A stretch of DNA of 64,000 bases from positions 248,001 to 312,000 of the forward strand of contig NZ_JACBFY010000005.1 in NCBI RefSeq assembly GCF_021401245.1. Direction: 5' to 3'. The DNA comes from Pseudacidovorax sp. NFM-22 (GTDB taxonomy: Bacteria; Pseudomonadota; Gammaproteobacteria; Burkholderiales; Burkholderiaceae_C). This document shows positions 22,716 through 38,201 of the stretch, piece after piece; the first letter of the stretch is position 1; each line of letters starts with the position of its first letter. The notes below the pieces were generated by a model, which saw only the letters and a list, made by a program, of their open reading frames with translations, searched no databases and was not told where the DNA came from. Made by a program: the position numbers and the translations under genes.

Positions 22716-22724
22716 GAGCCCTCC

Positions 22725-23641: not shown

Positions 23642-24340
23642 ATGACGACCCCCTCCCCCGCCCGGAAGATCGTGCTGATCACCGGCGCGTCCGGCCAGCT
23701 GGGCCGCGCCGTCGCGCAGGCCTTCCTCGACCAGGGCGCGCGGCTCATCCTGCTGGACCGTCACCGCGGCGTGCTGCCCGATGGCGAGGACCTGCGCCAT
23801 GTGACGGTCGACCTCGCCGACCGCACGCAGGTCGTGCAGCGCATCGGCGAAGCCACCGCGCAGATGGGCGGCCTGCACACGGTCTGCCACATCGCCGGCG
23901 GCTTCCGCATGGGCGAGGCGGTGCACGAGACCAGCGCCGCGACCTGGGACCTCCTGATGGACCTCAACGCCCGCTCGCTGCTGCACGTGGCCGCGGCCAC
24001 CGTGCCGCTGCTGCTCGCGCAGGGCGGCGGCCAGATCGTGACGGTGGGCGCCGGCGCGGCCGCCCGCGGCGGTGCGCAGATGGGTGCCTACAGTGCGTCC
24101 AAGAGCGCGCTGATCCGCCTGACCGAATCGATGTCGGCGGAACTGAAGGACCAGGGCATCCGGGTCAACTGCGTGCTGCCCTCGATCATCGACACGCCGG
24201 ACAACCGGCGGTCCATGCCCGAGGCCGACTTCGGCCGGTGGGTGACGCCCCAGGCCCTGGCAGAGGTGATCGCCTTCCTGGCCTCCGATGCGGCGCGCGC
24301 GATCCACGGCGCGGCGATCCCGGTCAGCGGGCGGGTCTGA
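23642..24340 (+). CDS. Short-chain dehydrogenase of dihydropteridine-reductase (QDPR) type
   Basis: This 232-residue Rossmann protein has a nucleotide turn TGASGQLG (GxxGxxG spacing, not the usual GxxxGxG) and the active-site pair Y150-x3-K154. The classical catalytic Ser, expected 13 residues before the Tyr, is Ala in VGAGAAARGG. The C-terminal section DTPDNRRSMPEADFGRW (184-200) matches the equivalent stretch of animal quinonoid dihydropteridine reductase almost residue for residue as I recall it. That enzyme also lacks the Ser and has GxxGxxG. It follows phhA by 14 bp. A role in regenerating tetrahydropterin for phhA fits the context, although the same motif occurs in a wider bacterial SDR clade. 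Confidence 0.7.
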   Translation: MTTPSPARKIVLITGASGQLGRAVAQAFLDQGARLILLDRHRGVLPDGEDLRHVTVDLADRTQVVQRIGEATAQMGGLHTVCHIAGGFRMGEAVHETSAATWDLLMDLNARSLLHVAAATVPLLLAQGGGQIVTVGAGAAARGGAQMGAYSASKSALIRLTESMSAELKDQGIRVNCVLPSIIDTPDNRRSMPEADFGRWVTPQALAEVIAFLASDAARAIHGAAIPVSGRV

Positions 24341-24448
24341 CGGCCGCCCAGGCGCTCGGCGCGAGCGGCGCCCCGCTCGCTCGCGGCATGGCATCGGGGT
24401 AGTTGCGGTCGTCGTTACCCCATCGATCGAGCCGCCACCCCATCCGGT

Positions 24449-25255
24449 TCAGCTCGGAATGCCCAGCAGCTGCTTCACCAGGCCGTACTGCGCATCGAGC
24501 ATCGAGGTGCCGAGCGAGATCCGGCAGCCGCGGGCCTGCGCCGCCACCAGCAGCGGCGTGAGCGCGGGCGTCATGATGATCTCGGCCACATCGGTGGAAG
24601 CGGCGAGCCGACCGACGTCCATGGGCAGCGGATCGCCCTCGTGCATGCCCATCGAGGTGGTGTTGATCACCACGTCGAATCCACGCGGATCGTCCGGCCC
24701 CGACGCGGCCGCACAGCCCGGCCAGGCCGCGCCCACCGCCTCGGCCAGCGCCTGCGCGCGCGCCGCCGTGCGGTTGTGGATGACGAGCGCGCTCGCGCCC
24801 GCCTCGGCGACGGCGAAGGCCACCGCACGGCCTGCACCGCCCGCGCCCAGCTGCAGCACGCGGCGGCCGGCCAGGCCGATGCCGCTGGCCGCCAGGCCGT
24901 CCACGAAGCCCTGACCGTCGAGGTTGTCGCCCGTGAGGCGGCCGTCGGGATCGCGGCGGACGAAGTTGACCGCGCCGATCAGGCGCGCACGCGGCGTGAC
25001 CGCATCCAGCAGCGGCATCACCGCGATCTTGTGCGGAATGGTCACGCCGAAGCCCTGCACGTTCTGCAGCAGGCGCAGCGTGCCGATGACGGTCGCCAGG
25101 TCCTTCGGCTGCACATGCAGCGGCGACACCGCCATGTCCAGCCCCTCTGCTGCAAAGCGCGCGTTGAGCCGGTCCGAGCCGACCACATGCGCGACCGGAT
25201 CGGCCAGGATGAACAGGATGCCGGTGCGGCCGGTGATGCGCAGGGCGGCGCTCAA
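24449..25255 (-). CDS. Shikimate dehydrogenase family protein lacking the Ser-x-Ser substrate motif
   Basis: This 268-residue protein has AroE architecture: K76 in VTIPHKIAVMPLLD, N97 in IGAVNF, D113 in DNLDGQGF, a nucleotide turn LGAGGAGRA and NTTSMGM. The N-terminal motif that holds the shikimate carboxylate (HSxSPxxHN in AroE) reads AHVVGSDRLN, so both serines are displaced and the proline is absent. A catabolic or specialised substrate is therefore more likely than shikimate. The start is TTG at 25255, overlapping the transketolase stop (TTGA). It is the last gene of the GntR-amidohydrolase-transketolase operon. Confidence 0.82.
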   Translation of the reverse strand: MSAALRITGRTGILFILADPVAHVVGSDRLNARFAAEGLDMAVSPLHVQPKDLATVIGTLRLLQNVQGFGVTIPHKIAVMPLLDAVTPRARLIGAVNFVRRDPDGRLTGDNLDGQGFVDGLAASGIGLAGRRVLQLGAGGAGRAVAFAVAEAGASALVIHNRTAARAQALAEAVGAAWPGCAAASGPDDPRGFDVVINTTSMGMHEGDPLPMDVGRLAASTDVAEIIMTPALTPLLVAAQARGCRISLGTSMLDAQYGLVKQLLGIPS

Positions 25256-26310
25256 CGCGCGTCTCCTGCGGCCAGCGCACGGCGCACCGCCTCGGCCACC
25301 GCCGGCGGCGTGAGGCCATGGCGCTCGAACAGCCAGGGCATCGAGGCGCCCTGCGCGAACTGGTCGCGCACGCCCAGGCGCAGCAGGCGCGCGCCGCCGC
25401 CAGCCTCCGCCATCGCCTCGGCGACGGCCGAGCCCAGCCCGCCGATCACCGAATGGTTCTCCAGCGTCACGATCAGCCGGCGCTGCCGGGCCTGCGCACG
25501 CACGAAGTCCTCGTCGAAGGGCTTGAGCGTGTGGGCGTTGGCCACGGCCACGCCCACCCCCCCGGCCCGCAGGCGCGCGGCGGCGGCCAGCGCCACCTCG
25601 ACCATCAGGCCGCTGGCGATCAGCAGCACCTCGCCCTCTGCGGCCTCCAGCGGCTGGATCTCGCCGATGCGCAACGGCATCCAGGGCGTGCCCGCAGGCA
25701 GGGCCTGGCTGGCGCGCAGCAGGCGCAGGTAGACGGGTCCCTTGTGGTCGGCCGCCGCACGGACGGCGGCGGGCACCTGGGCCGGTCCGGCCGGCTCGAT
25801 CACCGTCATGTTCGGCAGGGCCCGCATCAGCGCGATGTCGTCGATGGCCTGATGGCTCACGCCCAGGATGGTGGCGAGCCCGGGCAGGAAGCCCACGATC
25901 TTCACGTCCGCCTTCGGGTAAGCCACCTGCATGGCCACCTGGTCGTAGGGCCGCCGCGTGGCGAAGACGCAGAAGGTGTGGACCCAGGCCTGCAGGCCGC
26001 AGCGCGCCAGTCCGCCCGCCACGCCGACCATGTTGGCCTCGGCGATGCCGGCATTGATGAAGCGCTCGGGCAGCGCATCGCGGAACAGGTCGGTCTCGGT
26101 GGAGCTGCTCAGGTCGGCCGACAGCGCCACGATGTGGCCGCGCTCGCGCGCCAGGGCCAGCAGCGTCTCGCCGTAGTAGCGTGGCACGGCGGCCGGACTG
26201 GTGGCCGTGGCGCTTGCGGCCGGCGCGACGGCATGCGCGCCGCCCTGCGTGAAGTCGTCGACCACGACGGCATCCGCCTGCGCCGACGGGGAAAGGTTGG
26301 CATCACCCAT
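25252..26310 (-). CDS. Transketolase-like protein, C-terminal subunit
   Basis: This 352-residue protein corresponds to the pyrimidine-binding and C-terminal domains of transketolase. Landmarks are ALSADLSSSTETDLFRD, ERFINAGIAEANMVGVAGGLA (with the thiamine-activating Glu), HQAIDDIALMRALPNMTV, a typical domain junction and ENHSVIGGLGSAVAE in the last domain. It needs the N-terminal subunit encoded just upstream, with which it overlaps by 8 bp. Split transketolases of this type often belong to catabolic operons and transfer a two-carbon unit or act on a deoxy-sugar phosphate. The start MGDANLSPS has a low-complexity, Ala-rich N-terminal extension of about 50 residues. Confidence 0.88.
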   Translation of the reverse strand: MGDANLSPSAQADAVVVDDFTQGGAHAVAPAASATATSPAAVPRYYGETLLALARERGHIVALSADLSSSTETDLFRDALPERFINAGIAEANMVGVAGGLARCGLQAWVHTFCVFATRRPYDQVAMQVAYPKADVKIVGFLPGLATILGVSHQAIDDIALMRALPNMTVIEPAGPAQVPAAVRAAADHKGPVYLRLLRASQALPAGTPWMPLRIGEIQPLEAAEGEVLLIASGLMVEVALAAAARLRAGGVGVAVANAHTLKPFDEDFVRAQARQRRLIVTLENHSVIGGLGSAVAEAMAEAGGGARLLRLGVRDQFAQGASMPWLFERHGLTPPAVAEAVRRALAAGDAR

Positions 26311-27235
26311 GGCGGGCCTCCAGTTCGGCCAGGGCCGCATCGGCCAGATCGGCAGGCAGCTTCGCGTTGTGGCTGATCACCCCCTCCAGCGCACGCACGC
26401 CCTTGCCCGGCACGGTGGTGGCGATCAGGATGGTGGGCTGCGCCCGGTTGGCGCGGGCCAGACCGAAGGCCGCGACCAGCGCATCCAGGTCATGGCCGTC
26501 GACCTCGATGGCCTGCCAGCCGAAGGCCCGCCACTTGTCGGCGATGGGCGCGAGCCGCAGCACCTGGTCGGTGTGGCCCTCCACCTGCATCCAGTTCAGG
26601 TCGAGGATCACGCACAGGTTGCCCAGCTTCTGGGAGCCCGCGAACATCGCGGCCTCCCACACCTGGCCCTCTTCGAGTTCGCCGTCGCCGAGGATGACGT
26701 TGACCCGCCAGTCCACGCCCGACAGCCGCGAGGCCAGCGCCATGCCGGCCGCGGCCGAGACGCCCTGCCCCAGCGAGCCGAAGGTGCCTTCGACCACGGG
26801 CCCCAAGCGCTCGGAAACATTGATCTCCAGCGCGGAGCCGTCCACCACGTAGCCCGCCAGGTCGGCCTCGGGAATCATCCCGCGCAGCGCCAGCGCCGCA
26901 TGGAAGAGCGCCGAGTTGTGGGCGGTGGAAAGGATGCAGCGGTCGCGCCGCGGCCAGCGCGGCTCGGCCGGATCGATGGCCGCCTCGTGGAAGTAGAGGC
27001 TCGCGAACAGCTCGGCCGCGCCCAGGCCCTGCTGCACATAGCCCTGGCCATGGCGGCGCACCAGTTGCACCACCTGGCGGCGCAGCAGGCGGGCCACCTC
27101 GCGCAGCTCGTGGGTGGGCAGGGCCAGCCGGCCTGCCGCCTGCCAGCGCGGATCGGCACCCGACGCCGTCACTGCGCGAGCGGCGGCGGCACCCGCGTCG
27201 CTGCTGTCCTGAGCAAGGGCCGGGCGGGCACTCAT
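26303..27235 (-). CDS. Transketolase-like protein, N-terminal (thiamine-diphosphate-binding) subunit
   Basis: This 310-residue protein matches the first third of transketolase. It has STAHNSALFHAALALRG at the active site, GTFGSLGQGVSAAAGMALA, and the diphosphate motif GDGELEEGQVWEAAMFAGSQ, ending with LDLNWMQVEG. The start at 27235 overlaps the stop of the upstream amidohydrolase gene (ATGA). Together with the C-terminal subunit it should form a complete heteromeric transketolase. Its position directly behind the dimethylformamidase-like genes is unusual and suggests a joint pathway. Confidence 0.88.
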   Translation of the reverse strand: MSARPALAQDSSDAGAAAARAVTASGADPRWQAAGRLALPTHELREVARLLRRQVVQLVRRHGQGYVQQGLGAAELFASLYFHEAAIDPAEPRWPRRDRCILSTAHNSALFHAALALRGMIPEADLAGYVVDGSALEINVSERLGPVVEGTFGSLGQGVSAAAGMALASRLSGVDWRVNVILGDGELEEGQVWEAAMFAGSQKLGNLCVILDLNWMQVEGHTDQVLRLAPIADKWRAFGWQAIEVDGHDLDALVAAFGLARANRAQPTILIATTVPGKGVRALEGVISHNAKLPADLADAALAELEARHG

Positions 27236-29499
27236 GCCGGCACCTCGAAGGGCGCCGGGTCCAGGAAGCGCTGCAGCACATTGCCCGTGATGCGGCTGAT
27301 GTTGTTGTCGTAGCCGTTGTGGCTGAGCGAGAGCACGTACGAGATCGACCCCGTCGCGAAGACCGCACCGCCGTTGGCCGTCTCGAAGAACACCATGTCC
27401 GCCCGCACCAGCGCGTTCTGCTCGCCGTCCAGGCCGTGCACCGTGGTGCGGTACTCCTCGGGCGTGGGCAGCGCGCCCGGCCCCAGGCCGTGCGAGGTCG
27501 CCAGCATCACCGCATGCGGCGGCGAGCCCAGGCCGACGTCGAAGCGGTCGATCTCGATGCCCACGGCCCCGCCGATGCGCACGCCGTAGTCGCCGATGCG
27601 CTCGCTGGGCGCGATGCCCTCGACCGCGAAGGCCACACGCGGGTTGGCCGCATCGGGCGTCAGCAGGTAGTAGCCGGCATGGTCGTAGACCATGGCCGCG
27701 AAGCCCACGCCGATCAGCTTCTGCGGCGCGAAGCCGCTGTGGCGCCACAGCGCCCCGGGCTCGCCGGTGCCGGCCAGGTGCACCTCGCCGGGTTGCGATT
27801 CCCAGGTGCGGGTGCCGGCCATGCCGCGGCGCACTTCCACCGCGGCGGGCGCCTGCGGATGGAAGGCACAACGCCAGTAAAAGCCGTTGGCGCCCAGGGC
27901 CAGGTGGCGGCCACCCGCGTTCTGGAAGGCCATGATGCCGTTCATCATGGCCTCGCTGTAGTACTCGGGATGCGACAGCGTGGCGAGCGTGCGGTAGCCG
28001 GCCAGCGCGCCGGGCCCCTGGCGGTCCAGTTCGACGTCGGTGATGACGTCGTAGTCGATGCCCTTCTCTTCCAGCCAGTCCAGGAAGTGGCTGTCGATGG
28101 CGAGGTTGCCGGGCGTGGAGCGGGGGCGCATGTTCAGCACCGGCCGCAGCCAGGAGCTGTAGGCCCGGCCGCTGCCGTCGATGTGGTGGTCGTAGGTGGA
28201 CTGACCCACCTCCGGATGCTCCTGCAGGTAGACGTCGTCGCCCGTCAGCATCAGCAGCCGCTCGGTCAGCACCTCGAAGTGCACGGCATGCAGCCGCAGC
28301 GCACTGTTGGCATAGGCCATGTAGGTCATGCTGGCCGCCAGCACCGCCAGGGGTGCCCGCGCCGCATCGGCCGCGGGCGTGATGAAGAAGGTGATGAAGG
28401 TCTCGGCATCGTCCGCGGCGCGCGCGCCGCCCTGCCCCGGCGGGCGCAGGCGCAGGGCGTAGAAGCCGGACTTCCAACTGCGCGGCACGTCCAGCGCCAG
28501 CGTGGCCGGCCATTCGCAGTCGTAGATGTCGTCGCTGTGGAAGTGGATGGCGCCGTACTGCTGCGGCGCGGCGCGCCAGTCGTGCACGTCGCCCGTCCAG
28601 CGCACGCCCGTCATGGCGCGACAGGGCAGCTGGTGCAAACGGCCGTGCAGGCGGTTGGCCGAGATGTCCGGCACGTCCAGCGTCTCGATGCCCTGCGAGA
28701 AGTCCCAGCACGCCACCAGCTGCGCATCGGCCTGGCCGGGCCGGGGCGCCTCGTCGCAGCGGCGCAGCGCGTCGGCCTCCATGCGGCCCAGCACGAGACG
28801 GGGACCTTCGATCTTGCCGTCGTAGTGGCCCGCGCACAGGGTGCCCGTGCGGGTGCGCAGGTGCGCGCCGACCGTCAACGCGCACTGCGCGTCGACCTGC
28901 CAGGGGGCCGGGGCCGTGCGACGCGCCTCGTGGCGTTGCTCGGGCAGGGCGCCTTCGGCCAGGCGAATCTGCAGCACCTGCAGCTCGCCGGTGGCCGGGT
29001 CCAGGCTGGCCTGCACCCAGTACCAGCGCCGCTGCTCCAGCGCGACACCCGTGCCCAACACGATGCTGCCCGCATCGCTTCCCACGCGAAGGCCGACGCC
29101 GGCGCGGCTCACCTGCAGTGCATAGCCGCGGCTGGTGTCGTCGCACCAGCGGGCCACCACGGTCTGGGGCGTGTCGGTCAGGCGCGTGGGCCAGATGTAG
29201 GCGCCGAAGGTGAAGGCCCCGTCGGGCGCCAGGCGCGCGTCCTCCGGCACATGCAGGAAGGAACCGCAGGGCACCTCGCGGTGCGCCACCGCATGCAGGC
29301 CGTCGAGCGGCGACGCCATCTCCTGGTACTTGATGCCCGGGCCGGTGGCGTCGGCATCGGCGCAGCGCACGCGCACGAACTTCACGTCGGCCTGCGTCTG
29401 CTGCGCGCTGCTGAGGTGGAAGCGGATGCGCTCGCCCGCGCGCACGCTGAGTTGGTCGGGATAGCCGACGAAGGCGTTGGTCTCGATGGGGAAGGTCAT
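27232..29499 (-). CDS. dmfA2: N,N-dimethylformamidase-like amidohydrolase, large (beta) subunit
   Basis: This 755-residue protein is close to the roughly 760 of known DmfA2. N,N-dimethylformamidase splits dimethylformamide into formate and dimethylamine using a mononuclear iron held by two Tyr and one Glu. Candidate ligands are present in order and with fitting spacing: Y396 (MTYMAYANSA), Y436 (STYDHHID) and E512 (LSHPEYYS). The first 300 residues include a concanavalin-like beta domain (RRWYWVQASLDPATGELQ). The small subunit is encoded 29 bp upstream, as in dmfA1A2. The true substrate may be another amide, because the operon also holds a transketolase and an AroE-like protein. The symbol is given for homology only. 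Confidence 0.85.
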   Translation of the reverse strand: MTFPIETNAFVGYPDQLSVRAGERIRFHLSSAQQTQADVKFVRVRCADADATGPGIKYQEMASPLDGLHAVAHREVPCGSFLHVPEDARLAPDGAFTFGAYIWPTRLTDTPQTVVARWCDDTSRGYALQVSRAGVGLRVGSDAGSIVLGTGVALEQRRWYWVQASLDPATGELQVLQIRLAEGALPEQRHEARRTAPAPWQVDAQCALTVGAHLRTRTGTLCAGHYDGKIEGPRLVLGRMEADALRRCDEAPRPGQADAQLVACWDFSQGIETLDVPDISANRLHGRLHQLPCRAMTGVRWTGDVHDWRAAPQQYGAIHFHSDDIYDCEWPATLALDVPRSWKSGFYALRLRPPGQGGARAADDAETFITFFITPAADAARAPLAVLAASMTYMAYANSALRLHAVHFEVLTERLLMLTGDDVYLQEHPEVGQSTYDHHIDGSGRAYSSWLRPVLNMRPRSTPGNLAIDSHFLDWLEEKGIDYDVITDVELDRQGPGALAGYRTLATLSHPEYYSEAMMNGIMAFQNAGGRHLALGANGFYWRCAFHPQAPAAVEVRRGMAGTRTWESQPGEVHLAGTGEPGALWRHSGFAPQKLIGVGFAAMVYDHAGYYLLTPDAANPRVAFAVEGIAPSERIGDYGVRIGGAVGIEIDRFDVGLGSPPHAVMLATSHGLGPGALPTPEEYRTTVHGLDGEQNALVRADMVFFETANGGAVFATGSISYVLSLSHNGYDNNISRITGNVLQRFLDPAPFEVPA

Positions 29500-29528
29500 G
29501 GTGATGGAATGCGGTGCGCGGGGGGCGC

Positions 29529-29867
29529 TCAGTCGATGTCAAGCGCAGTGCCGGCGAGTGCCTGCCAGCGCAGCTTGAAGACATGCCACTCGGCCTCGTC
29601 CAGCGACTCGAAGACCACGTCGTGGAAGACCTTCACCTTCTGCCCGCGCTCGTCGGGCATCTGCGCCAGCGCCCAGCGGCGGCCGGGCTCGACCGTCAGC
29701 AGCAGGTAGCGACCCGGAAAGGCGCCCCAGCGCATGCGGTGCAGCAGCTTGCGCAGCTCTTCGCTGTGGGGGCCTCGGATGTTGCGGCGGAACTCGCTGG
29801 CGAGCTCGGTGCGGCTCGGGTCCAGCACATAGCGCGCGGCCTGGGGGTCGCTGGTGTGGTCCATCAT
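29529..29867 (-). CDS. dmfA1: N,N-dimethylformamidase-like amidohydrolase, small (alpha) subunit
   Basis: This 112-residue protein lies directly before the large subunit gene, as in known dmfA1-dmfA2 pairs, where the small subunit has about 130 residues. It reads as a compact mixed fold, with ELRKLLHRMRWGAFPGRYLLL and FHDVVFESLDEAEWHVFKLRW. The start at 29867 (an ATG pair) lies 2 bp after the GntR regulator stop, so regulator and enzyme are co-transcribed. No independent catalytic motif is expected in this subunit. Confidence 0.82.
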   Translation of the reverse strand: MMDHTSDPQAARYVLDPSRTELASEFRRNIRGPHSEELRKLLHRMRWGAFPGRYLLLTVEPGRRWALAQMPDERGQKVKVFHDVVFESLDEAEWHVFKLRWQALAGTALDID

Positions 29868-29869
29868 GG

Positions 29870-30619
29870 TCAGGGCGGTGTCTTGCCGGGCGGCGCCGGC
29901 TGGTTGCGAAGCGCCAGCAGTTCGGCCGCGCGCTCGGGGTTGTGGTCGATCTCGGTGAGCACCTTCACGAAATTGCGTCCGCCCTCGACCAGGTCGTCGC
30001 GGATGGCCTGCGTGACCAGGGCCACGTTGCGGGCCTGCAGGCCCTTGAGGACGTTCATGTGCTGGTGCTCGGCGTCGTAGCTGGGATGGCCGTGCGGGTA
30101 CAGAAAGTTCAGCATCGGGCCCACCTGCACCCAGATGCGGTCGAGCAACTCGGTGAGCTGCGGCATGCCAGAGCGGCGGTAGATGCCGAAGTGGAAGTCG
30201 AAGTTGTGCTGCAGCGCGGCGCGGTAGTCGCGCGTCTTTTCCGCCCGCATCAGCAGGCGGTGCGACTCGGTCAGCTGCCGGATCGCGGCATCGTCGAGCA
30301 GCGGGATGGCCCGCTCGGCGGCCAGCGGTTCCAGCGCCAGCCGGATGTCGCGCAACTCCAGGTACTCGGCCAGGCTCAGCTGCCGCACGCGGATGAAATA
30401 GCCTTCCTTCATCTCCAGGGCGCGGTCGCGCACCAGCTGGATCAGGGCCTCGCGCACGGGCGTCTCGCTGGTGCCGATCTCCTTGGCCAGTTCGCGGATC
30501 TTGAGCCGCTGCCCGGGCTGGAAGACCGCGGACATGAGCTTCTCGCGCAGGCTTTCGTAGATCTGGCTGGCGAGGTTGGTTCGGCCGACGACGTTGAGAC
30601 CAGGGGTGGACATGTTCAT
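29870..30619 (-). CDS. GntR/FadR-family regulator of the amidohydrolase operon
   Basis: This 249-residue protein has a winged helix at about 15-80 (SQIYESLREKLMSAVFQPGQRLKIRELAKEIGTSETPVREALIQL), then an FCD ligand domain with the metal-binding histidines in HNFDFHFGIYRRSG. It ends with the A-I-R-D-D-L-VEGG helix. It sits immediately before dmfA1 and after the transporter genes, so it probably controls the whole run in response to an organic acid or amide product. Its operator may be the repeat at 36070-36082. Confidence 0.92.
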   Translation of the reverse strand: MNMSTPGLNVVGRTNLASQIYESLREKLMSAVFQPGQRLKIRELAKEIGTSETPVREALIQLVRDRALEMKEGYFIRVRQLSLAEYLELRDIRLALEPLAAERAIPLLDDAAIRQLTESHRLLMRAEKTRDYRAALQHNFDFHFGIYRRSGMPQLTELLDRIWVQVGPMLNFLYPHGHPSYDAEHQHMNVLKGLQARNVALVTQAIRDDLVEGGRNFVKVLTEIDHNPERAAELLALRNQPAPPGKTPP

Positions 30620-30704
30620 CTCTGTGGGGCTGCGAAGGGAGCCGCCGGGGCGGCGGCGCAGCGAGTATCGGGGCCGCTGCGCACCGCCTGCCCGGCCTTG
30701 CGAC

Positions 30705-31784
30705 TCAGCGGCCCAGCCAGGCGATCCAGCGGTCGCGCAGCATCTGGCGGTTGTTGCCGATCCATTCGTAGTCGGCCACGATCAGCTTGTCGAAGTTCTC
30801 GGCCGAGGTCGCCAGCATGGCGCGGCGCTCGGGCGGGAACAGGTTGGCGGTCTTGGCGTTGCCGGTGTCGTAGCTGACGGCATCGACGAACTTCACGTGC
30901 TGCTCGGGCGGCAGGCTGTAGAAGAAGTCCAGGTAGGCCATGGCGGCCTTGGGGTGCGGCGCCCCCTTGGGAATGGCCATGTAGCCCACGTCGCGGATGG
31001 CGCCGTCCCACGACACGGCCAGCGGCACCTTGGCGTTGATCAGCGAGATCAGGCGGCCCGAATAGCCCATGGTCATGACCACCTCCTTGCTGCGCATGGT
31101 CTGCTGGAGCTGGTCGCCGCTCTTCCACCACACGGCGATGCTGGGGCGCAGCTTGTCGAGCTTCTTGTAGGCGCGGTCCAGGTCGAGCGGGAAAAGCTTG
31201 TCGGGCGCCACGCCATCGGCCAGCAGGGCGGCCACGGGCACCCACCATTCGCGGTCGCCGGTGTCGGGCAGGCCGCGCGGGCCGGGGAATTTGGCGGTGT
31301 CCCAGAAGTCGGCCCAGGTCCGGGGGCCCTTGCCGTCCTTGAAGACGTCGGTGTTGTAGCCGATCTGCATGCCGCCCACGGTGCGCATCACGCCATAGGG
31401 CGTGCAGGCGCCCTTGACGCCGTTGGCCGTCACGCTGGGCAGCTTGCTGCAGTCGATGGGCTGCAGCAGGTCCTTCTTCTGCACCAGGTCGGGCGGCGTG
31501 GCGGTGACGATGTCGAACTCCATGCCGCCGCTGCGCGACATGGCCTGCACCTTGGCCCACTGGTCGGGCACCTCGATGGCGGCAGGGATCACGTCCACGC
31601 CCTTGGCCTTGGAGAAGGGCGTGTAGAAGGACTGCACCAGCGCCTTCTCGATCAGACCGCCGGTGGTGGCGATCACCAGTTCCTTCTCGAGGGCCTGCGC
31701 CGAGGCGCCGGCGGCACCGAGCAGGGCAACGCCGCCGAGGACGAGCGCGCGGGCGCCCTTGCGTGGATCGAGCCAATTCATCAT
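30705..31784 (-). CDS. ABC transporter substrate-binding protein, polyamine (PotD/PotF) type
   Basis: This 359-residue periplasmic protein has a signal peptide (ARALVLGGVALLGAAGASA) and a mature part beginning ALEKELVIATTGG. Type II binding-protein features include VPDQWAKVQAMSRSGGMEFDIVTATPPDL, GYNTDVFKDGKGPRTWADFWD and GAPHPKAAMAYLDFFYSLPPEQ. The ribosome site AAGGAG precedes the ATG pair at 31784. It is encoded after its permeases and ATPase on the same strand. The substrate is likely a cationic or amide compound related to the downstream amidohydrolase, which is inference from context. Confidence 0.9.
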   Translation of the reverse strand: MMNWLDPRKGARALVLGGVALLGAAGASAQALEKELVIATTGGLIEKALVQSFYTPFSKAKGVDVIPAAIEVPDQWAKVQAMSRSGGMEFDIVTATPPDLVQKKDLLQPIDCSKLPSVTANGVKGACTPYGVMRTVGGMQIGYNTDVFKDGKGPRTWADFWDTAKFPGPRGLPDTGDREWWVPVAALLADGVAPDKLFPLDLDRAYKKLDKLRPSIAVWWKSGDQLQQTMRSKEVVMTMGYSGRLISLINAKVPLAVSWDGAIRDVGYMAIPKGAPHPKAAMAYLDFFYSLPPEQHVKFVDAVSYDTGNAKTANLFPPERRAMLATSAENFDKLIVADYEWIGNNRQMLRDRWIAWLGR

Positions 31785-31834
31785 CACGAACTCCTTGCGA
31801 GTGAAGACCAGGGAAAGAAAGAGAGGACTGGCGC

Positions 31835-32674
31835 TCAGCGGCTGCGCCGCCGGGCCTCCAGCACGCGCAGCAGCGCGGCGGCGACGAGCACCGCGATCGA
31901 CAGCAGGGTCAGCAGCGTCGCGATGGCGGGAATGACCGGCGTGAGGTTCTGCTCGATGTCCTCGAACATCCGGCGCGGCAGCGTGCGCTGGCGCACGCTG
32001 GAGACGAAGAAGGACACCACCGGTTCGTCGAAGGAGATGATGAACGCGAACAGCGCCCCGCTCAGCAGGCCCGGCACGATCAGCGGCAGCGTCACCAGGA
32101 AGAAGGCGCGCAACCGGCTCGCGCCGCAGCTCATCGCGGCCGACTCCAGGTCGGGGTCCACGCGCGACAGCGCCGCCGAGACGGTGAAGACCACGAAGGG
32201 CAGCGCCAGCACGGTGTGCGCGGCCACGAAGCCGGTCATCGTGCCCACCACGCCCAGGCGCTGGTAGAACAGGTAACAGGCCACCGCTACCGCGATGTGC
32301 GGCGCGATCACCGGGCCGATCACCATGAGCTGCGTGGCCGAACGCAGGCGCGCGGCACCGCGCACGATGGCATACGCCACCATGGTGCCGATCACCACCG
32401 AGCAGACCATGGTGAGCGCCGCCACGCGCAGGCTCAACAGGGCGGCGCGCTGCCACTGGGGATCGGCGAAGAACTCCTCGTACCAGTGCAGCGTGAAGCC
32501 GCGCGGCGGGAACTCGAGGTAGTCCGCCGGGCTGAAGGACATCGGCACGATGATCAGCGTGGGCAGCATGATGAACAGCACCACCAGCCACACGTAGACG
32601 CGCAGCGAGAGGCTGCCCAGGTCGAAGGGCGCCCGGTTGCGGCGGGCCGGCGGGACGCTCGGGGTGTCGGTCAT
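31835..32674 (-). CDS. ABC transporter permease, PotC type
   Basis: This 279-residue inner-membrane protein has six hydrophobic segments. It carries the EAA loop that contacts the ATPase as ESAAMSCGASRLRAFFLVTLPLIVPGLLSG. The overlap with the upstream permease (ATGA at 32671-32674) shows coupling. The 50-bp gap to the binding-protein gene carries only that gene's ribosome site. It is one half of the channel for the polyamine-type transporter. Confidence 0.92.
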   Translation of the reverse strand: MTDTPSVPPARRNRAPFDLGSLSLRVYVWLVVLFIMLPTLIIVPMSFSPADYLEFPPRGFTLHWYEEFFADPQWQRAALLSLRVAALTMVCSVVIGTMVAYAIVRGAARLRSATQLMVIGPVIAPHIAVAVACYLFYQRLGVVGTMTGFVAAHTVLALPFVVFTVSAALSRVDPDLESAAMSCGASRLRAFFLVTLPLIVPGLLSGALFAFIISFDEPVVSFFVSSVRQRTLPRRMFEDIEQNLTPVIPAIATLLTLLSIAVLVAAALLRVLEARRRSR

Positions 32675-33585
32675 GCGCCGCCTCCCATCAGACGGTTGAA
32701 GCTCACGGCCTTGTTGAAGACCATCGTCAGGCTGGCGACGACCACCATCAGCACACCGATCAGCGCGGCAGCGAAGGGCCAGTCGAGCATCTCGCGCACC
32801 TGCTGCGACACCAGCGTGGCGATCATCAGCTCCTGCGGGCTGCCCACCAGCGCGGGCGTGACGAAGAAGCCCAGCGCCGAGAGGAAGACCATCAGGCAGC
32901 CGCTCCAGATGCCGGCCCGGCTCATGGGCAGCAGCACCTCGAAGAAGGCGCGCCGGCGGTTGGCGCCCAGCATGGCCGCCGCCCGCATGTAGTCGTCGGG
33001 AATGTTCTTGAGCGCCGAGTAGATCGGCAGGATCAGGAAGGGCAGCAGTACATGGGCCATAGCCAGCACCACGGCGCCCTCGGTGTAGAGCAGCTTCATG
33101 GGCGCCCCGGTCAGGCCCAGCCACTGCAGGGCGTTGTTGACGATGCCGTCGCGGCGCAGCAGCACGATCCAGGCCGCCGTGCGCACCAGCACGCTGGACC
33201 ACAGCGGCAGCAGCACGCAGGCCGTCAGCAGCAGGGCGACCGCGCCTTTCACGCGCGTCATCATGTAGGCGATGGGAAAGCCCAGCACCAGCGCCAGCGC
33301 GGTGGTGAGCAGGCTGATCCAGCCGGTGCGCACCATCACACGCAGATAGACGGGGTTGTCGAACACGCGCGCATAGTTGTCCAGCGTCGGGTGCGGCTCC
33401 AGCACGCTCAGCGACAGCAGGCTCAGCAGCGGATAGACGAAGACCACCAGCAGCAGCGCGAAGAAGGGCGCGAGCAGCAGCGCCGTCCAGCCGCCACTGA
33501 GCTGCCGGCCGCCCAGCCACAGGCGGCGCAGCGGCGACGGTGGTGCCAGGGCGGCCGCGGCCACCGAAGGGGCGACGGCGCTCAT
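32671..33585 (-). CDS. ABC transporter permease, PotB type
   Basis: This 304-residue inner-membrane protein has about six hydrophobic segments and the EAA loop RAAAMLGANRRRAFFEVLLPMSRAG. The start MSAVAPS at 33585 overlaps the ATPase stop (ATGA). It pairs with the permease at 31835-32674. Confidence 0.92.
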   Translation of the reverse strand: MSAVAPSVAAAALAPPSPLRRLWLGGRQLSGGWTALLLAPFFALLLVVFVYPLLSLLSLSVLEPHPTLDNYARVFDNPVYLRVMVRTGWISLLTTALALVLGFPIAYMMTRVKGAVALLLTACVLLPLWSSVLVRTAAWIVLLRRDGIVNNALQWLGLTGAPMKLLYTEGAVVLAMAHVLLPFLILPIYSALKNIPDDYMRAAAMLGANRRRAFFEVLLPMSRAGIWSGCLMVFLSALGFFVTPALVGSPQELMIATLVSQQVREMLDWPFAAALIGVLMVVVASLTMVFNKAVSFNRLMGGGA

Positions 33586-34724
33586 GCTGCCGCCACCTCG
33601 TCGCCATACACGCGCAGCGCCTCGGGCGCCCAGCGCAGGCCGACCTGGTCGCCGGCCTGCACGCTGACGCGGCTGGGGTCGGACAGGCGCGCGCGCAGCT
33701 CGGTGCCGTCGTCCAGGTTGGCGATGCACAGCACGGTGGAGCCGCTGTAGATCACGCCGGCCACGCGGGCCCGCAGGGCCGACGGGTCTTCGGGATTCAC
33801 CAGCGCGATCTGCTCCGGCCGCAGCGCCGCCACGCCCTGCCCGCCCGCGGCGCCCAGGCCGACCAGCGCCTGCGCGTCCACCTCGCAGGGGTGCGCGCCG
33901 CCCGGCAGCTGCACCGTGGCCGCCTCGCCGCGCAGCGGCCCCACGCCGACGGGGATGAAGTTGGTCTCGCCGATGAAGCCGGCGACGAAGCGGTTGCGCG
34001 GCCGTTCGTACAGTGCCTTGGGTTCGTCCAGCTGCTGGATGCGGCCCTGGTTGAGTATGGCGACGCGGTCGGCCATGGTCAGCGCCTCGCCCTGGTCGTG
34101 CGTCACGAAGACCACGGTGATGCCCAACTGCGACTGCAGGCGCTTGATCTCCAGCTGCATCTCCTCGCGCAGGTTCTTGTCGAGCGCGCTGAGCGGCTCG
34201 TCCATCAGCAGCACCTTGGGCCGGTAGACGATGGCGCGGGCCAGGGCCACGCGTTGCTGCTGGCCGCCCGACAGTTGCGCGGGCATGCGGTCGCCCAGGC
34301 CCGCGAGCCGCACGGTGGCCAGCGCCTGCTCGGCGAGCCGGTGGCGCTCGGGCTTGGCCACACCGCGCATCTTGAGGCCGAAGGCCACGTTGTCCAGCAC
34401 CGTCAGGTGCGGGAACAGCGTGTACTTCTGGAACACCATGCCCAGGTTGCGGTGGTTGGCCGGCAGGTAGGTCACGTCGCGGCCGTCGATGGCGATCTGG
34501 CCGGCGTCGGGCAGCTCGAAGCCGGCGATGCTCATCAGGATCGAGGTCTTGCCGGAGCCGCTGGGGCCCAGCAGCGCCAGGAACTCACCCGGCCGGACAT
34601 GCAGCGAGACATCGTCCACGGCACGGACGGCGCCGAAGCGCTTGGCCAGCCGCGTGATCTCGATGGAGGCGCCGCCGACGTAGTCGGCCGTGCCGGCGGG
34701 CGTGGGACGGGGGGCGGATGCCAT
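33582..34724 (-). CDS. ABC transporter ATP-binding protein, PotA type
   Basis: This 380-residue ATPase has Walker A LLGPSGSGKTS, a Q-loop (GMVFQKYTLFPHLT), signature LSGGQQQRVALARA, Walker B VLLMDEPLSALD and the switch histidine in FVTHDQGEA. The C-terminal TOBE domain runs from about 290. Of two ATGs, 34730 and 34724, the second is 8 bases from AGGAG and is preferred. It follows the aminotransferase by 47 bp and powers the transporter encoded downstream. Confidence 0.93.
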   Translation of the reverse strand: MASAPRPTPAGTADYVGGASIEITRLAKRFGAVRAVDDVSLHVRPGEFLALLGPSGSGKTSILMSIAGFELPDAGQIAIDGRDVTYLPANHRNLGMVFQKYTLFPHLTVLDNVAFGLKMRGVAKPERHRLAEQALATVRLAGLGDRMPAQLSGGQQQRVALARAIVYRPKVLLMDEPLSALDKNLREEMQLEIKRLQSQLGITVVFVTHDQGEALTMADRVAILNQGRIQQLDEPKALYERPRNRFVAGFIGETNFIPVGVGPLRGEAATVQLPGGAHPCEVDAQALVGLGAAGGQGVAALRPEQIALVNPEDPSALRARVAGVIYSGSTVLCIANLDDGTELRARLSDPSRVSVQAGDQVGLRWAPEALRVYGDEVAAA

Positions 34725-34771
34725 CTGCATCTCTCCTGCAATCGTGGAGGGGGGCGGCGCGCTCGGCCGCG

Positions 34772-36025
34772 TCATCGGGACCCGAAGCGCCGGGACACGG
34801 CGGCGAAGGCGGCGTCGGTGGCCTCGAGTGCCTGGTCGATGTCGGCCTCGGTGTGCGCGAGCGAGAGGAACATGTTGTGGCGGGGATGCAGGTAGACCCC
34901 GCGGCGCAGGGCCTCGACGGTGAAGGCCGAGCCCTTCTCGAAGGCCGGATCGTCCTCGAACAGGATCAGCGGCAGCGCGGCGGGGCCGGACTGGCGCACC
35001 GGCATGCCGTGGCTGGCGGCCTGGGCCGCGATGCCGTCGCGCAGGCGCTGGCCCATGGCCTGCACGTGGCCGACCACATCCTGCGCATCGGCCACGTCCA
35101 GCGTGGCCAGGCTGGCCGCCATGGCCACGCCGCCCGACCAGAAGGAGCCCGTCGCATAGATGCGGGTGGCCGCATCGCGCAGGCTGTCCACGCCGGTGAC
35201 GGCAGCGAGGGCGTAGCCGTTGGCGATGGACTTGCTCCAGGCGCACAGGTCGGGCCGCACGCCCACCGTCTCCCAGCTGCCGCCCGCATGCACGCGCATC
35301 CCGGCCCGCACCTCGTCCACGATCAGGGCCGCCCCGGCCTTGTCGCACAGCTGGCGGGCATGGCGTGCGAATGTGGGGGTGGGCAGCTCCTGGTCGACGC
35401 CCAGGTCATGCTTGAAGGCGGCGCACACGATGGCGGCCAGGTCGTCGCCGGCCTTGGCCACAGCCGCGTCCAGGCTCGCCGTGTCGTTGTAGGTGTAGTG
35501 GATGAGGTGCGCCCGGTCCTCGGCCGTGATGCCCACCGGCACCGGCGTGCACCACGGGTCGGCGCCGTGGTAGGCCTTGGTGGCCACCAGCACCTTGCGC
35601 TTGCCGGTGGCGGCGCGCGCCACCATCAGGCAGATGGTGGTGGCGTCGGTGCCGTTCTTCTGGAACAGCGCCCAGTCCGCATGCGCGGTGCGGGCCACGA
35701 AGCGCTCGGCCAGCTCGACGAAGCGCTCCGTCGGGCCGTTGAAGCAGTCGCCCAGCGCCTGCTGGCGGCGGGCCGCCTCGTCCACCTGCGGATGGGCATG
35801 GCCCAGCAGGTTGGGGCCCCAGCTGCACATGAAGTCAATGTACTCGCGGCCATCGACGTCCCACAGCCGGCACCCCTGGCCGCGGGCGAAGTACTGCGGA
35901 TAGCCCGCGGGCAGCTGGGCCGCGTTCAGGTGCCCGGTCATGCCGCCCGGCACCACCTTGAGGGCGCGCTGGCGCAGAAGTTGGTCGCGCTCGCCGACGG
36001 TGGCGCTGGAGGTTTCGGAAGACAT
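34772..36025 (-). CDS. Class III aminotransferase, glutamate-1-semialdehyde aminomutase-like
   Basis: This 417-residue enzyme of fold type I uses pyridoxal phosphate. Landmarks are LWDVDGREYIDFMCSWGPNLLGH, QKNGTDATTICLMVARA, LIVDEVRAGMR and the Schiff-base lysine in CAWSKSIANGYALAAVTG. The layout resembles glutamate-1-semialdehyde aminomutase, but the place at the head of a transport and amidase operon argues for a catabolic amine, for example release of the nitrogen brought in by the polyamine-type transporter. Start 36025 is the MSSETSS codon; the frame is open 16 codons further up. It is divergent from otnK. Confidence 0.87.
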   Translation of the reverse strand: MSSETSSATVGERDQLLRQRALKVVPGGMTGHLNAAQLPAGYPQYFARGQGCRLWDVDGREYIDFMCSWGPNLLGHAHPQVDEAARRQQALGDCFNGPTERFVELAERFVARTAHADWALFQKNGTDATTICLMVARAATGKRKVLVATKAYHGADPWCTPVPVGITAEDRAHLIHYTYNDTASLDAAVAKAGDDLAAIVCAAFKHDLGVDQELPTPTFARHARQLCDKAGAALIVDEVRAGMRVHAGGSWETVGVRPDLCAWSKSIANGYALAAVTGVDSLRDAATRIYATGSFWSGGVAMAASLATLDVADAQDVVGHVQAMGQRLRDGIAAQAASHGMPVRQSGPAALPLILFEDDPAFEKGSAFTVEALRRGVYLHPRHNMFLSLAHTEADIDQALEATDAAFAAVSRRFGSR

Positions 36026-36069
36026 GGAAAGAAGCCTTGGGTGGTCGTCGATTTCGGCCGTAGGATATA

Positions 36070-36082
36070 TCATGTTTCATGT
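36070..36082. promoter_or_regulatory. TCATGT direct repeat / CATG inverted pair in a divergent promoter region
   Basis: TCATGT occurs twice (36070-36075 and 36077-36082). The two CATG units at 36071-36074 and 36078-36081 also form an inverted repeat with a TTT centre. It lies in the 112-bp gap between the aminotransferase (leftward) and otnK (rightward), in a locally AT-rich stretch (ATATATCATG). It is a candidate operator for the GntR regulator of the operon. Confidence 0.35.
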
Positions 36083-36137
36083 AACGCGATAGCCCCTGGA
36101 CGCCGCGGGCGCTTTTTTCCAACGCAAGGAGACTTGA

Positions 36138-37421
36138 ATGGCCCTTCTGTTCGGCGCCCTCGCCGATGACCTGACCGGCGGCATGGAGCTCGCCGCCATG
36201 CTCGTGGCCCAAGGGGTGCGCTGCGGCTTCGTGACGCATCCGGCCGAACTGGACGCGCTGCCCGCCGACATCGAGGCGGCCGTCATCGCCGGCAAGACGC
36301 GCGTGGTGCCGGCGCAGGACGCGGTGCGGGCCTTTGCCGACGGCGCCCGGGCGCTGCAGGCGCGCGGCGCCCGGCAGCTCTTCTTCAAGTACTGCGCCAC
36401 CTTCGACTCCACCGACGCCGGCAACATCGGCCCCTGCGCCGACCTGCTGCGCGAGATGACGGGGGCGCGCTTCACGGCCTTCTGCCCCTCCTTTCCGGAG
36501 GCGGGCCGCCGCGTGTTCCAGGGCCACCTGTTCGCGGACGACATGCTGATCTCGGAGTCGCCCAAGCGCTTCGATCCGCTCACGCCCATGCTCGACCCCA
36601 GCCTCGTGCGCACGCTGCAGCGCCAGACGGCAACGAAGGTGGGGCTGCTGCCCCAGCAGGTGGTGCATGCCGGGCTGGCGGCGATGCGCGCGCATGTGGC
36701 GCAGCTGCAGGCCGCGGGCGTGGGCTTCGCCATCGCCGATGCCGCCGAGCCGGACGACCTGGCAGCGCTCGCGGCCCTGACCTGGGACTGGCCGCTGATG
36801 ACGGGCAATTCGTCGATCGGCGCCTACTACCCCGCGCACTGGCGCCGCAACGGCTGGCTGACGTCCGCCCCGGCCGACCCGGCGCTGCCGGCCGTGGAAG
36901 GCCCCGCGGTCGTCCTGGCCGGCAGTTGCGCCGGCCGCTCCATCGAGCAGCTGCGCGCCTTCGGCCAGCAACGCCCGGTGCTCTGGATCGACATGGTCCG
37001 CGCGCTGGAAGGCGCCGACGTGGTGGGCGAGGCCCTTGCCTGGGCGCTGCCCCTGCTCGCGGCGGGCCCGGTGGCCATTGCCACTTCGGCCGAGGCGGCC
37101 GAAGTCGAACGTGTGCAGGCCCGCGCGGGCAAGCTGGGCGCCGCCGCACTGGCCGAGGAGGTGCTGGGCCGCCTGGCGCTGCGCCTGCGCGATGCGGGCG
37201 TGCGGCGCTTCGTCATCTCCGGCGGCGAGACCTCCGGCGCCGTGCTCCGGCACCTGGCCGTCACCCGCCTCACCGTGGGCGCCTACGAGGGCCCCGGCGT
37301 GGCCCGCGCGGTGACCGACGACCCCGGCGAGGGCCGGCTCGCGCTGTGCCTCAAGTCCGGCAAGCTGGGGCCCGTCGACATGCTGCTGCCCATGCTCCAG
37401 GGCATGGCCTCCGGCGGATAG
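36138..37421 (+). CDS. otnK: Four-carbon acid sugar kinase (3-oxo-tetronate kinase)
   Basis: This 427-residue protein belongs to the DUF1537 family, with the N-terminal motif ADDLTGGMELA, FKYCATFDSTDAGNIGP and the C-terminal nucleotide-binding sections ISGGETSGAVLRH and ALCLKSGKLG. The characterised OtnK enzymes phosphorylate 3-oxo-tetronates at C4. The next gene encodes the matching decarboxylase, so the two would convert a 3-oxo-tetronate to dihydroxyacetone phosphate and CO2. The ribosome site AAGGAG lies 8 bases before ATG 36138. It is divergent from the aminotransferase operon. Confidence 0.93.
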   Translation: MALLFGALADDLTGGMELAAMLVAQGVRCGFVTHPAELDALPADIEAAVIAGKTRVVPAQDAVRAFADGARALQARGARQLFFKYCATFDSTDAGNIGPCADLLREMTGARFTAFCPSFPEAGRRVFQGHLFADDMLISESPKRFDPLTPMLDPSLVRTLQRQTATKVGLLPQQVVHAGLAAMRAHVAQLQAAGVGFAIADAAEPDDLAALAALTWDWPLMTGNSSIGAYYPAHWRRNGWLTSAPADPALPAVEGPAVVLAGSCAGRSIEQLRAFGQQRPVLWIDMVRALEGADVVGEALAWALPLLAAGPVAIATSAEAAEVERVQARAGKLGAAALAEEVLGRLALRLRDAGVRRFVISGGETSGAVLRHLAVTRLTVGAYEGPGVARAVTDDPGEGRLALCLKSGKLGPVDMLLPMLQGMASGG

Positions 37422-37480
37422 GCCCCATGCCATCCGCCGTCCCGTACCGACCTCCACCCCTTCAGAAGAAAGCCGATCCG

Positions 37481-38167
37481 ATGACGACTCCCCTCGACAC
37501 CCCGATCTCCGAAGACGCCCTTCGCCAGGCCCTGGCCGACGGCTACCGCCGTCTGGCCGAACTCGGCCTCAACACGGGCAGCGCCGGCAACATCAGCTGC
37601 CGCTTCGACGGCGGCGCGCTGATCAGCCCTTCCGGCGCGGATGCCCACAGCATCGACGCGCAGGCCATCGTCTCGATCACCATGGATGGCGAGAACCGCT
37701 CGCCGGGCATTCCGTCCAGCGAATGGTCCATGCACACCGCCATCTACCGGCACTATCCGCAGGCCCTGGCGGTGGTGCATACCCATTCGGACGCCTGCGT
37801 GGCCCTGTCGGCCCAGCGCCGGCCGCTCCCCGCCTTCCACTACATGCTGGCGGGCTTCGGCGGCGACGGGGTGCCTTGTGCCAAGTACGCCACCTTCGGC
37901 ACCGACGCCCTGGCGCAATCGGCGGTCGACGCGCTGGCCGGCCACACGGCCTGCCTGCTGGCCAACCACGGAATGATCTGCCATGCGGTCTCCATCGAGA
38001 AGGCCGTCGCCAATGCGGCCAAGCTGGAGACGCTGGCGCGCCAGTACTGGATGAGCGCCCAACTGGGCGCCCCCGTGGTGCTGGACGCGGCGGAGATGGC
38101 GACGGTGCGCGACCGCTACCGCAGCTACGGCAAGGCGAGGCTGCCGCGCGGCGCCGGCGCCGCCTGA
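37481..38167 (+). CDS. otnC: 3-Oxo-tetronate 4-phosphate decarboxylase, class II aldolase family
   Basis: This 228-residue zinc enzyme of the class II aldolase/adducin family has GNISCRFDGGALISPSG, SSEWSMH and the metal-binding pair in VVHTHSDAC, with NHGMICHA later on. It follows otnK by 59 bp, a pairing diagnostic for tetronate catabolism (OtnK-OtnC). No upstream oxidising enzyme such as LtnD and no isomerase OtnI are in the window, so the pathway is incomplete here. Confidence 0.9.
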   Translation: MTTPLDTPISEDALRQALADGYRRLAELGLNTGSAGNISCRFDGGALISPSGADAHSIDAQAIVSITMDGENRSPGIPSSEWSMHTAIYRHYPQALAVVHTHSDACVALSAQRRPLPAFHYMLAGFGGDGVPCAKYATFGTDALAQSAVDALAGHTACLLANHGMICHAVSIEKAVANAAKLETLARQYWMSAQLGAPVVLDAAEMATVRDRYRSYGKARLPRGAGAA

Positions 38168-38201
38168 GCAGGGGCCGCGCCTTCCGGAAGAACGATGGCG
38201 C

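Follow-up and report, generated by a model that had tools for sequence, protein, structure and literature searches.

The window analysed here, 64,000 nucleotides of Pseudacidovorax sp. NFM-22, carries eleven minus-strand genes (36025–24449) that form an operon with a FumI-type aminotransferase at its head, together with a divergent plus-strand pair encoding a kinase and an aldolase. The operon is a catabolic regulon built of known enzyme families, and its combination of genes was not found described among the titles and abstract openings of the open-licence literature. Gene content, conservation, modular partners and a shared operator-like site were all observed directly. Our preferred reading, which we hold as a real possibility that falls short of probable, is that the locus is an inducible regulon for breaking down a vicinal amino alcohol in N-acylated form, with an N-acyl 2-amino-1,3-diol, HOCH2-CH(NH-acyl)-CHOH-R, as the likeliest candidate.

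Each chemical step of this scheme, like the substrate class itself, is predicted from the enzyme families. The Pot transporter would take up the N-acyl amino alcohol, the iron amidohydrolase D1D2 would strip the acyl group, and the aminotransferase would pass the amine to pyruvate and leave a ketose-like 1,3-dihydroxy-2-ketone, HOCH2-CO-CHOH-R. Two routes, one or both of which may be in use, could then break the ketone. In the first, the kinase would phosphorylate C1 and the FucA-like aldolase would split the product into dihydroxyacetone phosphate and R-CHO. In the second, the split transketolase would transfer the two-carbon end to another aldehyde, freeing R-CHO. Control of the two divergent transcripts would lie with a GntR regulator that has an FCD domain and is predicted to bind GATATATC-type sites; the direction in which it acts is likewise putative. 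Since the C1 hydroxyl makes the ketone ketose-like, it suits both the kinase with its FucA-like aldolase and the transketolase; all the partner sets found (transketolase, kinase plus FucA-like aldolase, and an E1/E2 pair of the acetoin-dehydrogenase type) suit an alpha-hydroxyketone.

The gene set is not a chance assembly, because the entire order with the divergent pair was found again in two Pseudacidovorax loci (L027, L033) and in Variovorax J22G73 (L028). An earlier note, made from the DNA alone, had proposed a single catabolic operon with amide hydrolysis, and a co-inherited operon of this kind is supported; all eleven genes that it listed are present. With a threshold of E 1e-80, homologues of the amidohydrolase large subunit D2 were found in 13 of the family's 399 genomes, the close form being confined to the window's genome, G177 and G300 (the remaining ten are 36–41% identical). 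Two Pseudacidovorax records have a D2 96% identical to that of the window, and a scan of one genome per species over 84,980 species returned 39 D2 loci. Five Bradyrhizobium loci (L029, L030, L032, L034, L059) carry kinase-aldolase-AroE-Pot-D1-D2 with a second DMFA2 protein, GntR and aminotransferase, and are without transketolase; the kinase, aldolase and AroE-like genes adjoin the transporter genes there, and the nearest transketolase C chains of these genomes are encoded at unlinked places and share no more than 38% identity, four of them adjoining a short-chain dehydrogenase/reductase (SDR). Rhizobium SSA_523 (L066) has the Bradyrhizobium-type arrangement plus the transketolase pair. Variovorax VAI-C has aminotransferase-GntR-transketolase-amidase-penicillin acylase-Dpp with no dmf gene (D1D2) in the 25 kb shown, and at two other places D1D2 with a different aminotransferase (52–54% identical). 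Because the Bradyrhizobium, SSA_523 and VAI-C loci combine the parts differently, dmf and transketolase genes are separable and the aminotransferase is the link between them. By the refuting condition that the earlier note set for itself, a strict dmf-transketolase pairing fails, dmf occurring without transketolase in the five Bradyrhizobium loci and transketolase without dmf in the 25 kb of VAI-C; what survives is a regulon with the aminotransferase as its centre. The core of the system is the aminotransferase, and the other parts are modular. The transketolase is replaced by an E2 and a fused E1 chain, alongside kinase and aldolase, in Shinella, Agrobacterium T29 and Sinorhizobium RAC02, the Shinella E2 (L075) scoring above the acetoin dehydrogenase cut-off (374 vs 307); amidase or penicillin acylase is present at other aminotransferase loci.

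On two replicons of Variovorax paradoxus VAI-C there are two much-alike aminotransferase-DppA-D1-D2-SDR-Dpp clusters (L067, L068), in which TetR replaces GntR and GATATATC does not occur. In Diaphorobacter aerolatus (L031, 10000–12273) D2 is split in two, neither the AroE-like gene nor the divergent pair occurs in the stretch covered, and an in-frame stop was reported at the edge of that genome's match to transketolase C; this is possibly a decaying copy or a sequencing error.

The aminotransferase (34772–36025; Pfam Aminotran_3) has as its closest solved relative FumI, the aminopentol aminotransferase (6hbs, 430.9 bits), and the next solved protein reaches 169.8 bits; by this closeness among solved class III aminotransferases it is FumI-type, with deamination of hydrolysed fumonisin as a putative activity. 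FumI acts on a 2-amino-3-hydroxy compound, passing its 2-amino group to pyruvate and yielding the 2-ketone (PMC2933618). At E 1e-95, relatives of the window protein occur in 4 of 399 family genomes, including the window's own, and in 22 of 397 from the order to which Bradyrhizobium belongs. Twenty of these 22 Rhizobiales loci served as a test set (Bradyrhizobium genomes G401 and G407 were left out), and a further 38 class III aminotransferases from those 20 genomes were the controls, with partners scanned by the same tblastn. Controls were, among the matches listed, the first ones below 345 bits, up to two per genome, with contig ends skipped. The test loci include near-identical pairs, which were pruned by hand only for the 34-locus count given below, and some test or control stretches (L085, L098, L107, L137) are shorter than 20 kb.

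With references taken from the window for the transketolase and mainly for the kinase, split transketolase was found beside the aminotransferase in 6/20 test and 0/38 control loci (p 0.001), and an OtnK-type kinase in 6/20 and 1/38 (p 0.005). Any carbon-carbon cleavage set was present in 10/20 vs 1/38 (p 3e-5), an N-acyl hydrolase in 8/20 vs 4/38 (p 0.012), a Dpp or Pot transporter in 15/20 vs 11/38 (p 0.001), and a flavoprotein in 5/20 vs 0/38 (p 0.003); the amidase, flavoprotein, E1 and Dpp references were drawn from plasmid aminotransferase loci, so that those counts favour the test group. The suggestion that the operon's aminotransferase deals with the freed amine is supported. A flavin-dependent monooxygenase-like protein (L068:16954–18783) occurs in 8 of 45 aminotransferase loci, all eight without GntR, and is perhaps an alternative route to opening the ketone.

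The acyl group would be removed by D1 (29529–29867) and D2 (27232–29499; PF20254, 297 bits). D1 gave no match in the PDB by sequence or by profile; it shares homology with the small protein encoded next to Paracoccus aminophilus dmfA2 (blastp E 8e-8, hhalign 96.8%) and is therefore taken as a small subunit of the dimethylformamidase (DMFase) type, its gene adjoining that of the large subunit as this type requires. D2 is 35.7% identical to the Paracoccus aminophilus large subunit and scores 468 bits to DMFase 6lvb and 404 bits to 8huy, an N-acetyl-(R)-beta-phenylalanine acylase. In DMFase the iron is held by Tyr-Tyr-Glu (Y399, Y440, E521; PMC7686228). The corresponding Y396, Y436 and E512 of D2 are conserved, all three being present in 51 of 51 D2 rows. 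By its ligands and adjacent small subunit D1D2 is thus assigned to the DMFase-type iron amidohydrolases, with hydrolysis of dimethylformamide itself a putative activity. The D2 proteins of aminotransferase loci form one clade in a midpoint-rooted FastTree tree, read without regard to branch support, and its sole member lacking an aminotransferase is that of A. larrymoorei (L070), which has instead an SDR and an enzyme like 3-hydroxy-D-aspartate aldolase (292 bits, cut-off 690). A second DMFA2-family protein (L029:12322–14025 and relatives) has Val or Leu at the second iron-ligand Tyr in 7 of 7 rows, and at L096 such a protein accompanies transketolase and aminotransferase without D1D2.

The two transketolase chains (N chain, 26303–27235, PF00456; C chain, 25252–26310, PF02779 and PF02780) score 213 and 215 bits to the solved split transketolase 6yak/6yaj, and the thiamine diphosphate (ThDP) motif, a GDG...N stretch, is retained with the C-chain Glu, residues whose roles we assume from known transketolases. 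A C chain matching that of the window at E 1e-90 was found in 2 of 299 genomes of the phylum (the window's own and G947), and at E 1e-60 in two plasmid records; all four adjoin a FumI-like aminotransferase. E. coli H26, H66 and H100 are, in the numbering and roles that we presume, the usual substrate-contact histidines of the N chain. One clade (window, L028, L031, L033, L066, L074, L104) keeps only the H66 equivalent, and another (L084, L085, L089, L096, L099, L100) keeps all three.

The divergent kinase (36138–37421), an OtnK-type four-carbon acid sugar kinase, scores above the 3-oxo-tetronate kinase model NF043035 (392.8 bits, cut-off 350), as do the kinases of L029, L069, L096 and L162; that of L075 falls below it (286 vs 350). 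Its partner (37481–38167) is a class II aldolase which had been named otnC in the earlier note, an identity that was not borne out, since it reaches 104.9 bits with the OtnC model (cut-off 250) and fits FucA-like models better. Its best model is the L-fuculose-phosphate aldolase PRK08087 (189.2 bits, cut-off 264), and fucA (177.5, cut-off 400) and RU1PAldHalo (164.8, cut-off 300) also score higher than OtnC. Five relatives of the aldolase score 101 to 115 with the OtnC model, below the same cut-off, and in all six tested (window, L029, L069, L075, L077, L096) the FucA or ribulose-1-phosphate aldolase models outscore it.

These scores bear on an alternative substrate, the beta-amino acid derivative N-acyl 3-amino-2,4-dihydroxybutanoate, which is the R = COOH case of the amino-diol scheme. 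D1D2 and the aminotransferase would convert it to 3-oxo-tetronate, the kinase would form the 4-phosphate, and the aldolase homologue would decarboxylate this to dihydroxyacetone phosphate. The five kinases above the tetronate cut-off speak for this route, as does the relation of D2 to a beta-amino-acid N-acylase, but the six aldolases are far from OtnC and closer to FucA and ribulose-1-phosphate aldolase, the L075 kinase fails the model, and the transketolase would be superfluous. We know of no common natural source of the compound, which also counts against it, and we consider this substrate unlikely. In a linear route that would use every carbon-carbon enzyme, the transketolase would instead add a two-carbon unit to glyoxylate, giving 3-oxo-tetronate, and the kinase and aldolase would release dihydroxyacetone phosphate and CO2. 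Such a route fits the kinase score and would account for transketolase and kinase sharing a locus in the window, L066, L084, L085 and L096; yet the aldolases are not OtnC-like, the operon encodes no source of glyoxylate, L084 and L085 have a kinase without a recognised aldolase, and the five Bradyrhizobium genomes lack a close relative of the window transketolase. It seems to us very improbable.

The last gene of the operon, with a TTG start, encodes an AroE-like dehydrogenase (24449–25255; PF08501). The protein falls below all 19 shikimate/quinate-type cut-offs listed, its best scores being 159.2 (cut-off 252) and, with TIGR00507, 156.2 (cut-off 200.2). The catalytic K and D, as we assume their roles, are retained, and the position of HSxS, presumably the shikimate carboxylate-binding motif, reads HVVGS in the window and HVRAS in Bradyrhizobium and SSA_523. 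Because the cut-offs are failed and HSxS is lost, the quinate-like or ring substrate suggested earlier finds no support. The transporter comprises a PotA-type ABC ATPase (33582–34730; TIGR01187 potA, 359.5 bits, cut-off 355.6), PotB- and PotC-type permeases (32671–33585 and 31835–32674; both PF00528) and a PotD-type periplasmic binding protein (30705–31784; PF13416). Solved relatives of the binding protein include those for mannopine (5l9s, 188 bits), agropine (6hly, permease, 133), 'polyamine' (4eq7, 127) and a gamma-aminobutyrate sensor (6dgv, 115), so that among relatives with a named ligand it is nearest to mannopine and agropine binders.

The earlier note had joined these parts into a scheme in which an amide of a polyhydroxy acid or cyclic polyol is hydrolysed, its ring oxidised by the AroE-like enzyme and its skeleton rearranged by transketolase, with an OtnK-OtnC exit. 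The co-conservation of all parts in Pseudacidovorax and Variovorax J22G73 and the nearness of the binding protein to opine (sugar-amine) binders are in its favour; the OtnC score, the lost carboxylate motif, and the absence of the transketolase and of the AroE-like gene, each from some related loci, tell against it. Its outline of amide hydrolysis, aminotransferase and divergent pair stands, the OtnC, quinate-like and dmf-transketolase elements do not, and as a whole we give it little credence. Wherever an aminotransferase locus has the AroE-like gene (10 of 45), D2, kinase and aldolase are there too. This pattern would fit two pathways acting on one conjugate, with D1D2, the AroE-like protein, kinase and aldolase consuming the acid half of a polyhydroxy-acid amide and the aminotransferase and transketolase consuming the amine half, as would the separate aminotransferase-GntR-transketolase block of VAI-C. 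The kinase pair is, however, not tied to an acid half, because it accompanies the aminotransferase without D1D2 and the AroE-like gene at L081, L091 and L095 (in L095 a single operator site lies between the pair and the aminotransferase), and such a division of labour appears improbable.

Evidence for a common regulon comes from the palindrome GATATATC (36064–36071), which lies in the 112-base divergent region, at 42 bp and 71 bp from the starts of aminotransferase and kinase respectively, and is the single copy in the window (0.03 expected). Nearly the same distances recur in L027, L028 and L033, and relatives have the palindrome, mostly as TGATATATCA, ahead of their aminotransferase and kinase genes. 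Of 46 GATATATC sites counted over 36 loci, some of them near-identical and two chosen because they hold a site, 38 fall within −60 to +450 bp of the start of an aminotransferase, kinase, PotA, DppA, transketolase N, E1 or GntR gene; two of the other eight duplicate two further ones (overlap of L089 and L162). At 16 aminotransferase loci not used for motif discovery, 5 of 9 sites fall within −60 to +150 bp of the start of a partner (3.1% at random; p 3e-6), a limit chosen after the site positions in the 36 loci had been viewed (p 2e-4 with the +450 limit), and 4 of the 9 are not near a recognised partner start. This test excludes L161 and L162, chosen for holding a site; with both included the figures are 7 of 11 and p 8e-9. 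Counted per locus, a site is present in 5 of the 16 and in 1 of 38 controls (p 0.007); among the 16, it is present in 4 of 5 loci with GntR and in 1 of 11 without. Sixteen whole genomes contain 37 TGATATATCA sites and 5 of the reversed pattern; 26 of the 37 are inside aminotransferase loci as read from coordinates, a count that is partly circular because 6–7 of the 16 genomes supplied motif-finding loci or near-identical ones. One of the 26 (G411, L162) precedes a kinase gene that is 13 kb away from the aminotransferase. In that locus (L162:900–8630) two gene pairs like hydantoinase/oxoprolinase, named from their translations, separate the aminotransferase from the kinase, and an operator copy stands between the two pairs, hinting at another amide-opening module.

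The site also tracks the GntR gene (29870–30619; PF00392 and PF07729). After near-identical loci were removed from the 45, 34 non-redundant aminotransferase loci were left, of which 14 have GntR and site, 2 GntR alone, 1 the site alone and 17 neither (p 1.6e-6); the site is thus present in 14 of 16 loci with an FCD-GntR and in 1 of 18 without. The FCD-GntR protein is likely the regulator that acts via the palindrome, to which it is predicted to bind. From this co-occurrence, aminotransferase, kinase, transporter, transketolase and E1 are placed in one regulon. The kinase-aldolase pair is included because GATATATC, besides tracking GntR, separates the aminotransferase from the kinase here and reappears in front of partner genes elsewhere. 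The earlier assignment of the divergent pair to the system is upheld by this shared operator region and by the five Bradyrhizobium loci where the pair and the AroE-like gene adjoin the transporter.

Several observations weigh against the amino-diol reading. Fumonisin has no C1 hydroxyl, so FumI is no proof that a 1,3-diol would be accepted. The loss of two contact histidines means that the window enzyme may not be a plain transketolase, and having both a transketolase and a kinase-aldolase pair in one operon appears redundant. A kinase that passes the 3-oxo-tetronate equivalog model would better suit a four-carbon acid, and none of the six aldolases reaches a FucA cut-off, FucA being the best-fitting family without certified membership. 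The AroE-like protein is without a place in the scheme. Ten of the 20 Rhizobiales aminotransferase loci have no cleavage set in the stretch fetched, L079, L083, L086 and L088 have no partner recognisable in the scan apart from PotA-type ATPase matches, and L099 and L104 carry transketolase and aminotransferase without GntR or operator. Finally, 11 of the 37 TGATATATCA sites fall outside aminotransferase loci: five at a conserved, unrelated-looking spot before a small gene in five Bradyrhizobium genomes (L152–L154, L156, L157), one in G527 beside GntR, Dpp and a transketolase fragment, one in G499 before Dpp-like genes, and four elsewhere. The operator interpretation is likewise countered by a second ATGATATATC in the window's own genome, near a gene resembling ribonucleotide reductase (named from the start of its translation), which we take to be unrelated.

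Comparison with known systems sets the locus apart from each. The fumonisin cluster includes a ThDP enzyme, FumJ. Fumonisin catabolism (FumD-FumI, Sphingopyxis MTA144) likewise has a FumI-family aminotransferase making an alpha-hydroxyketone after a hydrolase, with pyruvate as acceptor, but its FumD is a carboxylesterase where the window has an iron amidohydrolase, and neither split transketolase nor kinase-aldolase was found in the accessible part of PMC2933618; fumJ, acetolactate and fumK were not found in that of PMC4845651. DmfA1A2 of Paracoccus shares the two-subunit architecture, the Tyr-Tyr-Glu ligands and the adjacent small subunit, whereas the window D2 sits beside an aminotransferase and ketose-cleaving enzymes, at the identity given above and in a clade of its own. 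The 8huy acylase is alike in its large subunit and, to judge by its PDB name, acts on an N-acyl amine. D-erythronate and L-threonate catabolism proceeds through OtnK and OtnC; the window kinase passes the OtnK cut-off, but its aldolase is FucA-like and no OtnI-type isomerase is among the annotated operon genes. Acetoin dehydrogenase (AcoABC) is paralleled by the fused E1 and E2 beside the aminotransferase, without transketolase, at L075, L076 and L082, and has no such counterpart in the window operon.

Two other identities were rejected. The 3-amino-5-hydroxybenzoate (AHBA) or aminoshikimate pathway, in which RifI occurs with split transketolase, has a cluster that holds AHBA synthase and aminodehydroquinate (aminoDHQ) synthase. 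Biosynthesis of this kind was set aside, as no AHBA or aminoDHQ synthase is among the eleven operon genes, to which the search was confined, a transporter is present, and the aminotransferase is class III. Being an N-acyl 2-amino-1,3-diol, chloramphenicol is of the substrate type proposed; the catabolic routes for it in PMC13400229 and PMC9590159 (chd cluster, capO) use a GMC oxidoreductase, a hippurate hydrolase and an L-threonine aldolase. Because these enzymes differ, a chloramphenicol operon was rejected and the compound kept only as one possible substrate type.

An engineered transketolase-transaminase cascade makes 2-amino-1,3,4-butanetriol (PMC5813273, as far as its text was accessible). 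It shares with the proposed pathway the two enzyme classes and the type of intermediate, and is synthetic and anabolic; the steps proposed here would be that cascade in reverse. In the open-licence papers, none was found that links dimethylformamidase with transketolase or deals with 'split transketolase'. More doubtful than the reading of this one locus is a generalisation of it, that a natural reverse cascade might exist as a GntR-controlled modular regulon in which FumI-family aminotransferases act on deacylated 2-amino-1,3-diols (sphingoid-, phenicol- or aminopolyol-like) with interchangeable chain-breaking modules: the transketolase clade that lacks two contact histidines, a kinase with its FucA-like aldolase, or a complex of the acetoin-dehydrogenase type. 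This would be a general bacterial strategy for amino alcohols, as yet without a name. The operon itself is a real, shared nutrient-use system of a soil bacterium, with a putative substrate class. If the proposal is true, it would give a function to FumI-like aminotransferases now modelled nearest glutamate-1-semialdehyde aminomutase or left as class III, and explain why, in bacteria of soil and root nodules, split transketolases and DMFA2-like amidohydrolases stand next to them. It would also provide a regulon motif that predicts pathway members, and natural enzymes to make or break 2-amino-1,3-diols, the unit on which sphingoid bases and phenicol antibiotics are built.

The remaining features of the locus concern its layout. 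Gene names assigned by Pfam and NCBIfam agree with those given earlier, with two corrections, OtnC and the AroE-like protein. From the coordinates, five of the ten intergenic junctions overlap by 4–8 bases, one is a gap of 2 bases and four are gaps of 29–85 bases. A consensus scan of 24200–38600 revealed no sigma-70 promoter; terminator-like sites in the same interval number 6 (3.4 expected), every one on the plus strand. Just past the operon, on the other strand (21274–23627), lie genes whose translations resemble 4-hydroxyphenylpyruvate dioxygenase and phenylalanine hydroxylase.

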